64,000 nt of DNA from Nodosilinea sp. FACHB-131. Lineage in GTDB: Bacteria > Cyanobacteriota > Cyanobacteriia > Phormidesmidales > Phormidesmidaceae. This document shows positions 4,942 to 63,984 of the stretch, piece by piece (within the stretch, counting starts at the first letter, position 1; each line of letters opens with the position of its first letter). Location of the stretch: NCBI RefSeq assembly GCF_014695395.1, contig NZ_JACJOF010000016.1, positions 248,001-312,000 on the forward strand, in the 5' to 3' direction. Below the pieces are notes generated by a model. That model worked only from the letters and a program-made list of their open reading frames with translations, ran no database searches and was not told where the DNA came from. The translations under genes were made by a program, and so were the position numbers.

Positions 4942-5042
4942 GATGCTGTTGCGGCTTCTACGGGGCAAACTAGGAATTTAGAGATCGCTGTCTTTGGGAG
5001 CCACTCTACGAAGTCACTCTGGTGGGTAGCAAGCTTAAAATT

Positions 5043-5120
5043 GTAGGTTGGGTGGCGCGATAGCAGAACCCAACAGAACTATCTCTGGCGTTGGGTTTCA
5101 CTTCGTTTCACCCAACCTAC
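5043..5120. repeat. interspersed inverted repeat, family B
   Basis: A second full copy of the element at 172-250: it starts GTAGGTTGGGTGGCGCGATA and ends TTTCACCCAACCTAC, with internal AACCCAAC and GTTGGGTT. It lies just downstream of the NLR gene. The cassette from XRE to NLR is therefore bracketed by two copies, about 4.9 kb apart. Confidence 0.75.
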
Positions 5121-5302
5121 GAGAATCCTAATTTCTATTGTTGACGCTGCACTAGCACTTGGTGCATAACGCTAAGGCGAGGCGTTGCCGACGCGCAGCA
5201 GTGCAATGTGGGTATGCACTGGAGAAAAATTTCATCCTTAACAAAGATCTTGTATTTGCAGTTGGGAATCTTGAGAAAACCATCTTGAGAGGCACCTGCC
5301 CT

Positions 5303-62099: not shown

Positions 62100-63080
62100 A
62101 TGAACTCATCCCCCATTCAGACCGGGTTTGATCGCATGTTCCAACCCAATCAGCTGACGGTCGGCGTGTTCTTTCCTATCGAGGCGTACAAGGGCAGCAT
62201 TCCCACCATGCAGCATCAGGTGGAGCTGGCCCAGCGAGCCGAGGCCCTGGGCTATGCCGCCCTCTGGGTGCGAGACGTGCCGCTCTATGACCCCACCTTT
62301 GGAGACGTGGGGCAGATTTTTGACCCCTGGGTTTACTTAGGCTACATGGCGGCCCAGACCGATCGCATTGCCTTGGCCACCGGCAGCATTATCTTTAGCC
62401 AGCGCCACCCGTTGCACCTGGCGAAGTCAGCGGCTTCGGTCGATCAGCTCTCCCAAGGACGGTTGGTGATGGGGGTGGCTTCGGGCGATCGCCCGGTGGA
62501 GTTTCCTGCCTTTGGGGTTGACTTTGAGACGCGGGGCGATCGCTTTCGTCAGACCTTTGCTGACTTTAGGCAGGCCTTGGCCACAGAGTTTCCGGTGATG
62601 CGCTCGTCGCTGACCCAGATGGAGGGGGCCGACCTGCTGCCCAAGCCCGTCAACGGCAGCATTCCCCTGCTGGTGACGGGCCACAGCCGTCAAACCCCCG
62701 AGTGGATCGCCGAGCACGCTGACGGCTGGCTCTATTACCCACGCCATCCCCACATGCAGGCCCGCATGATTCAAGACTGGCGCGCCCTGGTCGATCGCGT
62801 CGCCCCTGGCAGATTCAAACCCTACGCCCAATCGCTCTACGTCGATCTGGTGGATGACCCCACCGCTGCGGCAACGCCCATTCACCTGGGCTATAGGCTG
62901 GGGCGCGATCGCCTGCTCGACCTGCTGCTGCACCTGCGCGACATTGGCGTCAACCACGTCGGCCTCAACCTCAAGTATGGTGAGCGCCCCGCAGGCGATG
63001 TGCTAGAAGAAATTGGTCGAGAGGTTTTACCGCACATTCATTCAGAGGTTTTAACCCATGGACGAGTATCAGTCGGTTAG
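62100..63080 (+). CDS. LLM-class flavin-dependent oxidoreductase
   Basis: The protein has 326 aa. The bacterial luciferase-like TIM barrel is shown by LTVGVFFPIEAYKGSIPTMQ, LAQRAEALGYAALWVRDVPL, RIALATGSIIFSQRHPLHLA, SQGRLVMGVASGDRP, LLVTGHSRQTPEWIAEHADG and VGLNLKYGERPAGDVLEEIG. It uses FMN (or F420) and probably oxygen to oxidise an unknown substrate. It resembles the cluster of LLM proteins placed beside OsmC or peroxide genes. Its end overlaps the start of the Rof-like gene by 23 bases. Confidence 0.93.
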   Translation: MNSSPIQTGFDRMFQPNQLTVGVFFPIEAYKGSIPTMQHQVELAQRAEALGYAALWVRDVPLYDPTFGDVGQIFDPWVYLGYMAAQTDRIALATGSIIFSQRHPLHLAKSAASVDQLSQGRLVMGVASGDRPVEFPAFGVDFETRGDRFRQTFADFRQALATEFPVMRSSLTQMEGADLLPKPVNGSIPLLVTGHSRQTPEWIAEHADGWLYYPRHPHMQARMIQDWRALVDRVAPGRFKPYAQSLYVDLVDDPTAAATPIHLGYRLGRDRLLDLLLHLRDIGVNHVGLNLKYGERPAGDVLEEIGREVLPHIHSEVLTHGRVSVG

Positions 63081-63306
63081 CTGTGATTTCTACGACGAGT
63101 TAGAGGCTCTGGCCACCCTACACCAAACTTGCCCAATTCACTACCGCACCGAGGGCGGCGATGAAGTGAGCACTGAAGGCCAAATCGTCGATTTCTTTGC
63201 GGTTGAGAAAGCCGAATATCTGCGGCTGAAGGACGGCACCGAAATTCGCCTCGATCGCTTGATTTCTGTAGACGGCAAGCCGGTACAGTTTGCGGCCAGC
63301 GAGTAG
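63058..63306 (+). CDS. Rof/YaeO-like protein (Rho-binding antiterminator family)
   Basis: The protein has 82 aa. The start region YQSVSCDFYDELEALATLHQ matches the Rof pattern (YxPIxCDxYDxLE), and EKAEYLRLKDGTEIRLDRLI matches its strands ending in LRLDxI. Rof binds Rho and inhibits termination in enterobacteria. Cyanobacteria are known to lack Rho, so this member must bind another partner or act as an Sm-like RNA-binding protein; that is inference. It is translationally coupled to the LLM gene (overlap 63058-63080). Confidence 0.82.
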   Translation: MDEYQSVSCDFYDELEALATLHQTCPIHYRTEGGDEVSTEGQIVDFFAVEKAEYLRLKDGTEIRLDRLISVDGKPVQFAASE

Positions 63307-63392: not shown

Positions 63393-63695
63393 ATGCCTAA
63401 CAGCCTTAATTGCCAGGACATCGTCGCTAGGGTTAAAGCCCATCAAAGTACTCTTGAGCAGATGGGTGTTAAATCTCTAGAGATTTTTGGTTCTGTAGCT
63501 CGCGATGAAGCCACCCCTCAAAGCGATGTTGACTTCTTAGTGGAATTTTCTAGGCCAGTCGGGTTTTTCCAAGTTTTTGATATTCAATACTTTTTAGAAG
63601 ATCTGCTTCAGCGTCCTATTGATTTAGGCACAGTGGATGCTTTAAAGGAACACCTACGACTTCCAGTTTTGGAGAGCACGATTCGTGTCTTCTAG
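63393..63695 (+). CDS. MntA-type nucleotidyltransferase antitoxin
   Basis: The protein has 100 aa. The minimal NTase motif is LEIFGSVARDEATPQSDVDF followed by LVEF: G33-S34 with D45 and D47, the full GSx10DxD. In known pairs MntA adds AMP units to a tyrosine of the HEPN toxin and so silences it. AGGAG at about 63379 precedes the ATG. Its end overlaps the GTG start of the HEPN gene by 11 bases, which gives coupled translation, as usual for this type VII toxin-antitoxin system. Intact. Confidence 0.93.
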   Translation: MPNSLNCQDIVARVKAHQSTLEQMGVKSLEIFGSVARDEATPQSDVDFLVEFSRPVGFFQVFDIQYFLEDLLQRPIDLGTVDALKEHLRLPVLESTIRVF

Positions 63696-63984
63696 GAACT
63701 GGAGGTTGCGGGTAGAAGATATTTTGAATGCCATCGAGACAATTCAGACTCGTTTAGACGGCTTTGATTTTGCAGCCTTTGTTAATGACGCTATCTTGGT
63801 TGAGTCGATAATTTATCAGCTCATCATTATTGGGGAAGCTTCAGCAAATATTCCCTCGGACATCAAAGCCCTGGCACCAGACTTGCCCTGGCGACAAATG
63901 ACCGATATGCGAAATATCATGGCCCATGCTTACTTTCGAGTAAAGCTGGATGTTGTTTGGGAAACCGCTTGCGAAAACTTATAG
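63685..63984 (+). CDS. HepT-type HEPN toxin (possibly C-terminally short)
   Basis: The protein is 99 aa from GTG 63685, overlapping mntA by 11 bases. The HEPN RNase motif is DMRNIMAHAYF: R76-x4-H81-x-Y83, with the Tyr being the AMPylation target. LVESIIYQLIIIGEASANIP is the usual preceding helix. It should cleave RNA unless modified by MntA. It stops at CENL, while many HepT proteins continue about ten residues with another short helix, so the end may be trimmed. The active site is intact. The gene ends 16 bases before the window end. Confidence 0.92.
   Translation: MSSRNWRLRVEDILNAIETIQTRLDGFDFAAFVNDAILVESIIYQLIIIGEASANIPSDIKALAPDLPWRQMTDMRNIMAHAYFRVKLDVVWETACENL

Follow-up and report, generated by a model that had tools for sequence, protein, structure and literature searches.

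We analysed a window of 64,000 nucleotides from Nodosilinea sp. FACHB-131, the window being the whole stretch of DNA under study, and identified in it three tightly spaced, co-directional genes encoding an OsmC-like protein, an LLM-class oxidoreductase and a small Rof-like protein (Table 1). The osmC stop codon and the LLM start are separated by 3 nt, and the rof-like gene overlaps the LLM gene by 23 nt, bearing out the coupling proposed in an earlier, sequence-only reading of this DNA. An AGAGG stretch, read by eye at 63044-63048, stands 9 nt 5' of the rof-like ATG. The same spacing of -23 between the LLM and rof-like genes recurs in two related loci, L012 and L013, where the OsmC gene is likewise present. 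The dN/dS ratio in the window's own subgroup is 0.10-0.32 (nine usable pairs of 15), which argues that the rof-like frame is not a chance ORF. Its GC content of 0.538 is near the mean of 0.574 (SD 0.057) for 249-bp pieces of the window and thus gives no sign of foreign contamination, and the host genome (G000), at 6.16 Mb, is listed as 100% complete. We also observed a toxin-antitoxin-like pair of the MNT/HepT kind (NTP_transf_2 plus HepT-like) at 63393-63984, 3' of the operon; the window's HepT, of 99 aa, stops 13 aa short of that in L012 (112 aa).

Table 1. Features of the rof-like operon in the window (positions without a locus prefix) and gene cassettes found beside rof-like genes elsewhere.
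Feature	Location	Strand	Remarks
OsmC-like protein gene, 135 aa	61689..62096	+	First gene of unit; PF02566, 2.3e-17
LLM-class (luciferase-like) oxidoreductase gene, 326 aa	62100..63080	+	TIGR03571, 1.7e-127, 424.9 bits, above cut-off
Rof-like protein gene, 82 aa	63058..63306	+	ATG start; last gene of unit
Start of helix 1, codons 9-16, CDFYDELE	63082..63105	+	From residue table; predicted helix 9-21
beta3-beta4 loop, codons 49-53, VEKAE	63202..63216	+	Second Rho contact in E. coli Rof
OsmC-LLM cassette	Window, L012, L013		
LLM with SDR, TetR, Pyr_redox	L014		
NIPSNAP-SDR-Pyr_redox-nitronate monooxygenase	L015; partly L016		
globin-MOSC-HTHP-[rof]-thioredoxin-family-redoxin-MarR	L018, L020-L026, L029		Varying completeness
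Globin, thioredoxin-family gene, Tpx, MarR with rof-like gene	Nostoc sp. C057 plasmid p057_A		
SDR-glyoxalase	L034		
Rieske	L036		
Divergent Rieske/Pyr_redox oxidoreductase genes	L052:3232-4890, L065:3266-4918	-	Beside rof-like gene

The earlier reading had credited the small protein with clear Rof features. These are real, although the window protein on its own scores below the curated cut-offs of both family models: PF07073 matches at E 0.001 with 19.6 bits (cut-off 27.6), and NF008636, the "Rho-binding antiterminator" model, at E 1.9e-6 with 28 bits (cut-off 117). A phmmer search of the PDB with the window protein returns Rof chains only, at E about 0.004. That reading had also named a profile search as a means of placing the protein outside the family; our profile of 56 relatives (A2) has no significant PDB match other than Rof, with three sequences at 2.5e-8 to 3.6e-8 and the next match at 0.79, and no placement outside Rof was seen. 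Among the 56 members of the profile, 40 match PF07073 and 44 match NF008636 at E<=0.01, and a relative in G038 clears the PF07073 cut-off (31.7 bits, E 8.4e-7). The AlphaFold2 model made from the A2 alignment (pLDDT 83.9, pTM 0.65) predicts an N-terminal helix (residues 9-21) plus an Sm-like barrel, and in the structural comparison with Rof that the reading had suggested, the best PDB alignment is to Rho-bound Rof (8w8d_d), with Z 9.9 and 31% identity at an rmsd of 1.7 across 72 residues. Further alignments are to CapW (Z 8.9 and 8.8), BrxR (8.4), Vibrio YaeO, itself a Rof (8.3), and Hfq (at most 8.1). These Z-scores are from a second aligner; Foldseek returned no PDB match at E<=0.001, with a Rof chain ranked first at a best value of 5.0e-3. 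The window protein is a Rof homologue. Calling it "a Rof" is a separate matter, given its scores below the cut-offs, its altered contact loop and a host in which no Rho is detectable.

Genes of this kind are rare in the window's phylum, where single-sequence and profile searches of a sample of 386 genomes give the same five carriers, four of them in the window's class. Searched over the same sample, PF07073 finds one of the 386 (G038) and misses all four Cyanobacteriia carriers, and there is no PF07073 match at 1e-5 in G400, a genome bearing the Rof-like locus L028. Because PMC11018626 used the same PF07073 model in Annotree, such relatives may have gone unseen before. Scanning 84,980 species genomes yielded 125 relatives, of which the best 80 were kept. 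Among these best 80 of 125, 28 loci are cyanobacterial and many belong to Hymenobacter, and Methylocaldum, Rhodopirellula, a Leptospiraceae MAG and others are represented once each. By name, the closest matches are to a Nodosilinea MAG and to Leptolyngbya sp. FACHB-60, as would suit a filamentous cyanobacterium. The scan used two patterns, one of them the helix motif discussed below, and may have passed over divergent members. Among the 31 cyanobacterial rows in our alignment, 17 match the second pattern too and all 17 keep the helix motif, while four whole-genome matches and a Nostoc plasmid copy were recovered without the helix pattern.

With regard to mobile elements, no match pointing to a phage origin was found among 50,697 phage records, and four of 72,556 plasmid records hold a rof-like match. 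One copy lies on plasmid p057_A of Nostoc sp. C057 (L092:6016-6246, NZ_CP040282.1), flanked by genes for a globin and a thioredoxin-family protein, where the ORF is annotated merely as a shorter hypothetical protein. Several other loci show peculiarities of their own. In Hymenobacter persicinus (L075, near 5001-5228) there is an in-frame stop within the Rof-like reading frame, and eight Hymenobacter loci (L060, L061, L074, L079, L083-L086) have a second small ORF just upstream of the rof-like gene, which by eye resembles the Rof barrel and, in the example shown, has no CxxYDxLE motif.

A tree of 90 rows and 83 columns, weak inside and with a bootstrap not quite settled, has all 31 cyanobacterial rows on the same side of a branch supported at 97/92; in a thinned tree of 52 rows they again stand together (85/95). 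The 31 rows come from 29 genomes, since L014 and L025 share one and L018 and L036 another. Two loci were dropped before counting, L015 (genome of L004) and L042 (genome of L005), and five Hymenobacter loci (L047, L049, L058, L075 and L076), all carrying the helix motif, had been missed by the ORF filter and were left out of the counts. The dN/dS ratio ranges from 0.03 to 0.32 in the 41 listed cyanobacterial pairs, of 52 usable and 129 tried. On the strength of the joint grouping and these ratios, one Rof-like lineage persists in cyanobacteria without detectable Rho, maintained by purifying selection.

The apparent absence of Rho is central to how this lineage is understood. Passages of PMC13289151 describe cyanobacteria as lacking Rho, and the earlier reading had put forward a full-genome search for rho as the result that could overturn its argument. 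No rho is detectable in G000 or in the Rof-bearing cyanobacterial relatives. In G000, TIGR00767 gives two matches, both below its cut-off and named by NCBIfam as ATP synthase beta and alpha, and PF07497, the Rho RNA-binding domain, gives no match at E<=1; over the four Cyanobacteriia carriers searched, PF07497 has a single match, at E 0.4 in G005. A search through the Rof-bearing loci covered 36 genomes of 37 loci, L012 being left out. A rho gene over the cut-off (509 bits) is present in none of the 25 cyanobacterial genomes reached in this way, where the best match is 37.1 bits, and in 10 of the 11 non-cyanobacterial ones; the eleventh, a Lewinella MAG, has part of a rho gene where a contig ends. 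Twelve of the 386 genomes in the phylum sample have rho over the cut-off, none of them in the window's class, and one of these twelve, G038, has a Rof-like gene as well. The rho searches covered the hosts of the 31 cyanobacterial rows except L012 and L092, and those of 12 of the 48 rows outside the class (11 over the cut-off, one a fragment). Because a Rof homologue is found, here in a redox operon, and no rho was found in its host or relatives, the protein very likely acts otherwise than by inhibiting host Rho, as the sequence-only reading had argued.

The residues with which Rof grips Rho offer a further view of what has been kept. In passages of PMC11018607 and PMC11018626, E. coli Rof is reported to dock on Rho via helix 1 (N9, C10, D11, Y13, D14, E17), with a second contact made by the beta3-beta4 loop (R46, K47, N48, E50). 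Passages of PMC11018626 add that the Y13 and E50 positions both touch Rho R88, and that Rof docks mainly beside the Rho OB fold, the loop alone touching the N-terminal helix bundle. As for mutants, the same passages report that Rho binding is lost in D14A and Rof toxicity in E17K, both proteins being made at normal or higher levels, that E17A hardly weakens Rho binding and is nearly as active as the wild type, and that Y13A lowers the level of Rof in E. coli. When the window protein is compared at these positions, as the earlier reading had proposed, the helix set is kept (C9, Y12, D13 and E16 for Rof C10, Y13, D14 and E17), and the loop has kept one position in four, with V49, E50, K51 and E53 standing against R46, K47, N48 and E50 and the last alone conserved.

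All 31 cyanobacterial rows have the same residues at the equivalents of C10, D14 and E17, a count to be read with the helix motif having been favoured by the search patterns. Helix 1 has a mean column entropy of 0.39 vs 1.18 for the rest of the protein in these rows (p 0.0006, in a test that ignores the kinship of rows), with values of 0.45 vs 1.07 in other rows and 0.85 vs 1.65 in Pseudomonadota, whose "invariant" positions 32-35 are gaps. At the Y13 equivalent the cyanobacterial rows have H in 25 and Y in six, and at the E50 equivalent D in 25 and E in six; H is always paired with D (25 H/D, 6 Y/E), and the window protein is of the Y/E type. Outside the class, the E50 equivalent is E in all 48 rows and in 11 of 11 Pseudomonadota rows. 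In the cyanobacterial rows the second Rho-contact loop has thus drifted, and the change at E50 alone is confined to them. We considered the change of Y13 to H as a mark of Rho loss and rejected it, H being found also in six of 11 Pseudomonadota Rof rows, taken from a family search, and in the rho-bearing G038. A redox switch between Cys9 and Cys25 was likewise set aside, as C25 is present in 42 of the 48 rows outside the class and the predicted helix would hold the two cysteines apart. The helix motif is shared by the whole family and could therefore be kept for folding, a reading to which the lowered Rof level of Y13A lends some weight. Conservation of D14 and E17 is nevertheless easier to explain by binding, because the D14A and E17K proteins are made normally yet are inactive on Rho; the near-normal activity of E17A counts against this.

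We also examined the genes beside each rof-like gene, taking as a chain the co-directional genes with gaps of <=250 nt, up to three on each side. A redox gene is present in the chain at 17 of 29 cyanobacterial loci and absent at 12 (hand tally). Of the 77 cyanobacterial chain genes, 71 were scanned with Pfam, and at least 28 of the 71 fall in eight redox or detoxification families (HTHP 6, SDR 5, globin 5, LLM 3, Redoxin 3, nitronate monooxygenase 2, Pyr_redox 2, OsmC 2), a count that assumes one family per gene and is inflated by related loci repeating one cassette. Beside the rows outside the class, 2 of 68 chain genes are redox genes (tyrosinase and Fer2), in a comparison set that is mostly Hymenobacter and in which 34 of 48 loci have any chain gene. 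The idea that relatives outside cyanobacteria have no redox neighbours is, however, refuted by an opposite-strand Rieske/Pyr_redox oxidoreductase gene near 20 of 47 non-cyanobacterial loci, its identity checked in L052 and L065. These divergent genes weaken the cyanobacterial contrast, not the link with redox genes, and because of them that link may predate the cyanobacterial group. A better argument than the neighbour counts is how much the cyanobacterial cassettes vary (Table 1).

Two further observations concern these neighbourhoods. Directly downstream of several cyanobacterial rof-like genes (L018:5215-5883 and relatives) is a gene for a protein with a CPGC motif, for which neither Pfam nor NCBIfam gives a match; a PDB profile search with this thioredoxin-family protein finds 3lor (thiol-disulfide isomerase and thioredoxins) at 9.6e-9 and also 3eyt (uncharacterised). 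In L026:4752-5246, a single frame of 164 aa joins an N-terminal part that is HTHP-like by eye to the Rof-like protein, reflecting either a fusion or a local deletion.

Such close spacing raises the possibility, which we judge unlikely, that the Rof-like protein assists the redox proteins encoded beside it (LLM, HTHP, redoxin-like, globin), as an accessory subunit or as a chaperone, and has no relation to nucleic-acid-binding proteins. The 23-nt overlap with the LLM gene, repeated in L012 and L013, would fit such a role, as would the overlaps of 8-32 nt (longest-ORF starts) between the rof-like and thioredoxin-family genes in seven loci (L018, L020, L021, L023-L026) and the redox gene near many Hymenobacter loci. 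However, the would-be partners vary from OsmC-LLM to NIPSNAP-Pyr_redox-NMO, globin-HTHP-redoxin and SDR-glyoxalase, and with the 12 of 29 cyanobacterial loci whose chain has no redox gene, this argues against any single enzyme as a fixed partner.

We tentatively favour, with a little less than even confidence, a Rof-family docking protein that has been re-aimed at a partner other than Rho and is carried in oxidative-stress cassettes. The small acidic Sm-like barrel would retain the working principle of Rof in a Rho-less host, with helix 1 (CxF[Y/H]DxLE) plugging the face by which a protein binds nucleic acid and thereby blocking that face. The protein gripped would differ from Rho and is probably nucleic-acid-binding; a different partner is suggested by a conserved helix, a second contact that has drifted, continuing selection and searches that found no Rho. 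The block would probably be applied under oxidative or electrophile stress, since the gene is often made from operons for the detoxification of oxidants or reactive compounds. Continued docking by the helix, inhibition by docking and oxidative-stress timing are what we infer. Against a re-aimed docking protein stand the rarity of the gene in the phylum sample and the Rho PBS/OB domain (PF07497), the site gripped by Rof, which has no counterpart at E<=1 in G000. A Rho-like partner recognisable by that domain in G000 was accordingly rejected as a candidate. The Rho_N model (PF07498) does find a protein in G000, a 447-aa Rho_N-DUF4912 protein (L109:1480-2820, G000:C21), and similar ORFs are present in G170, G185 and G005; because Rof docks mainly beside the Rho OB fold, we regard this protein as a lead only.

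The earlier reading had offered RNA binding through the Sm-like fold as one option for the protein's function. More broadly, the barrel may directly bind RNA, single-stranded DNA or a small ligand in the manner of Sm-like or WYL-like domains, which we consider improbable. In the predicted model, Hfq, CapW and BrxR do align at Z-scores comparable to that of Vibrio Rof. A shared barrel fold is no proof of function, however, and RNA binding fits poorly with a protein as strongly acidic as this one (net charge -11, pI 4.3; mean net charge -6.1 over the 31 cyanobacterial rows), in which the putative docking helix is more conserved than the barrel.

A bolder form of the re-aimed docking protein is that, in place of Rho, cyanobacteria acquired an unrecognised factor for termination or RNA surveillance whose nucleic-acid-binding face is Rho-like, and that this Rof clade was re-aimed at that factor and silences it under oxidative stress. 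We regard this as a long shot. If true, the rof-like protein would already provide a bait for the termination factor that is missing in cyanobacteria.

It is also conceivable, and in our view very improbable, that the helix motif serves folding only and that stress islands carry the protein as a passenger in slow decay. The sporadic distribution (5 of 386) and the copy on a Nostoc plasmid would suit a passenger; the low dN/dS ratios in the pairs listed, the grouping of rows from several cyanobacterial families and a full-length open frame at every cyanobacterial locus examined would not. That the protein still inhibits a Rho, brought by mobile DNA or missed in these genomes, is scarcely credible: the window subgroup keeps most of the residues with which E. 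coli Rof contacts Rho (C10, Y13, D14, E17 and E50), but no rho is over the cut-off in G000 or in 25 of 25 locus-reached carriers, with positive controls present, and both side chains touching Rho R88 are changed in 25 of 31 rows.

Passages of PMC11018626 describe Rof as restricted to Pseudomonadota, based on PF07073 at 1e-5 in Annotree, and passages of PMC11018607 describe it as found only in rho-encoding organisms. If homologues are counted as Rof, both claims fail, and further relatives are found in Bacteroidota, Planctomycetota, Spirochaetota (a MAG) and others. We found no report of Rof in cyanobacteria among the literature matches listed. The Rof family itself is known; what is new is a Rof-family group in bacteria without detectable Rho. 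According to passages of PMC9765468, the effects of Rof on sRNA terminators trace to Rho. In Synechococcus elongatus, passages of PMC13289151 (2026) report that known mechanisms end a minority of transcription units and that, among the candidates tested, Mfd alone had an effect; Rof has no occurrence in that paper. A Rof homologue whose docking helix is conserved in hosts lacking detectable Rho is a concrete bait for the partner it may grip.

Among known systems, the closest is E. coli Rof, or YaeO (PF07073, NF008636; PDB 1sg5, 8w8d, 8ptm), whose activity is lost on N-terminal tagging and which is like the window protein in fold and length, in the helix equivalents of C10, Y13, D14 and E17, and in the loop equivalent of E50. 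The two differ in the rest of the loop, where R46, K47 and N48 are replaced by V49, E50 and K51, and the window protein, unlike E. coli Rof, scores below the Pfam and NCBIfam cut-offs and has no detectable host Rho. Their genes also keep different company, with E. coli rof going with yaeP (passages of PMC11018626) and the window gene with those for OsmC and LLM proteins. The Rof-like proteins of Hymenobacter, Phaeodactylibacter, Methylocaldum and Rhodopirellula are 44-61% identical to the window protein and share its helix motif. Unlike the cyanobacterial group, the relatives in Bacteroidota and other phyla belong to hosts with rho (10 of 11 tested, plus G038) and have E50 in 48 of 48 rows; co-directional redox genes are few beside them, and a divergent one lies near 20 of 47 loci. 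The Sm-like RNA chaperone Hfq has the barrel fold of the window model (Z about 7.5-8.1 over 57-60 residues, with 10-21% identity in the rows shown), whereas the window protein is acidic and bears the helix motif of Rof docking. WYL domains, which passages of PMC4012209 describe as Sm-like ligand binders whose groove bears basic residues, combine a barrel with a preceding helix and align with the predicted model at Z <=8.9 (CapW) and 8.4 (BrxR) over 72-73 residues. CapW and BrxR share 10-11% identity with the window protein, which, unlike them, stands alone with no attached DNA-binding domain.
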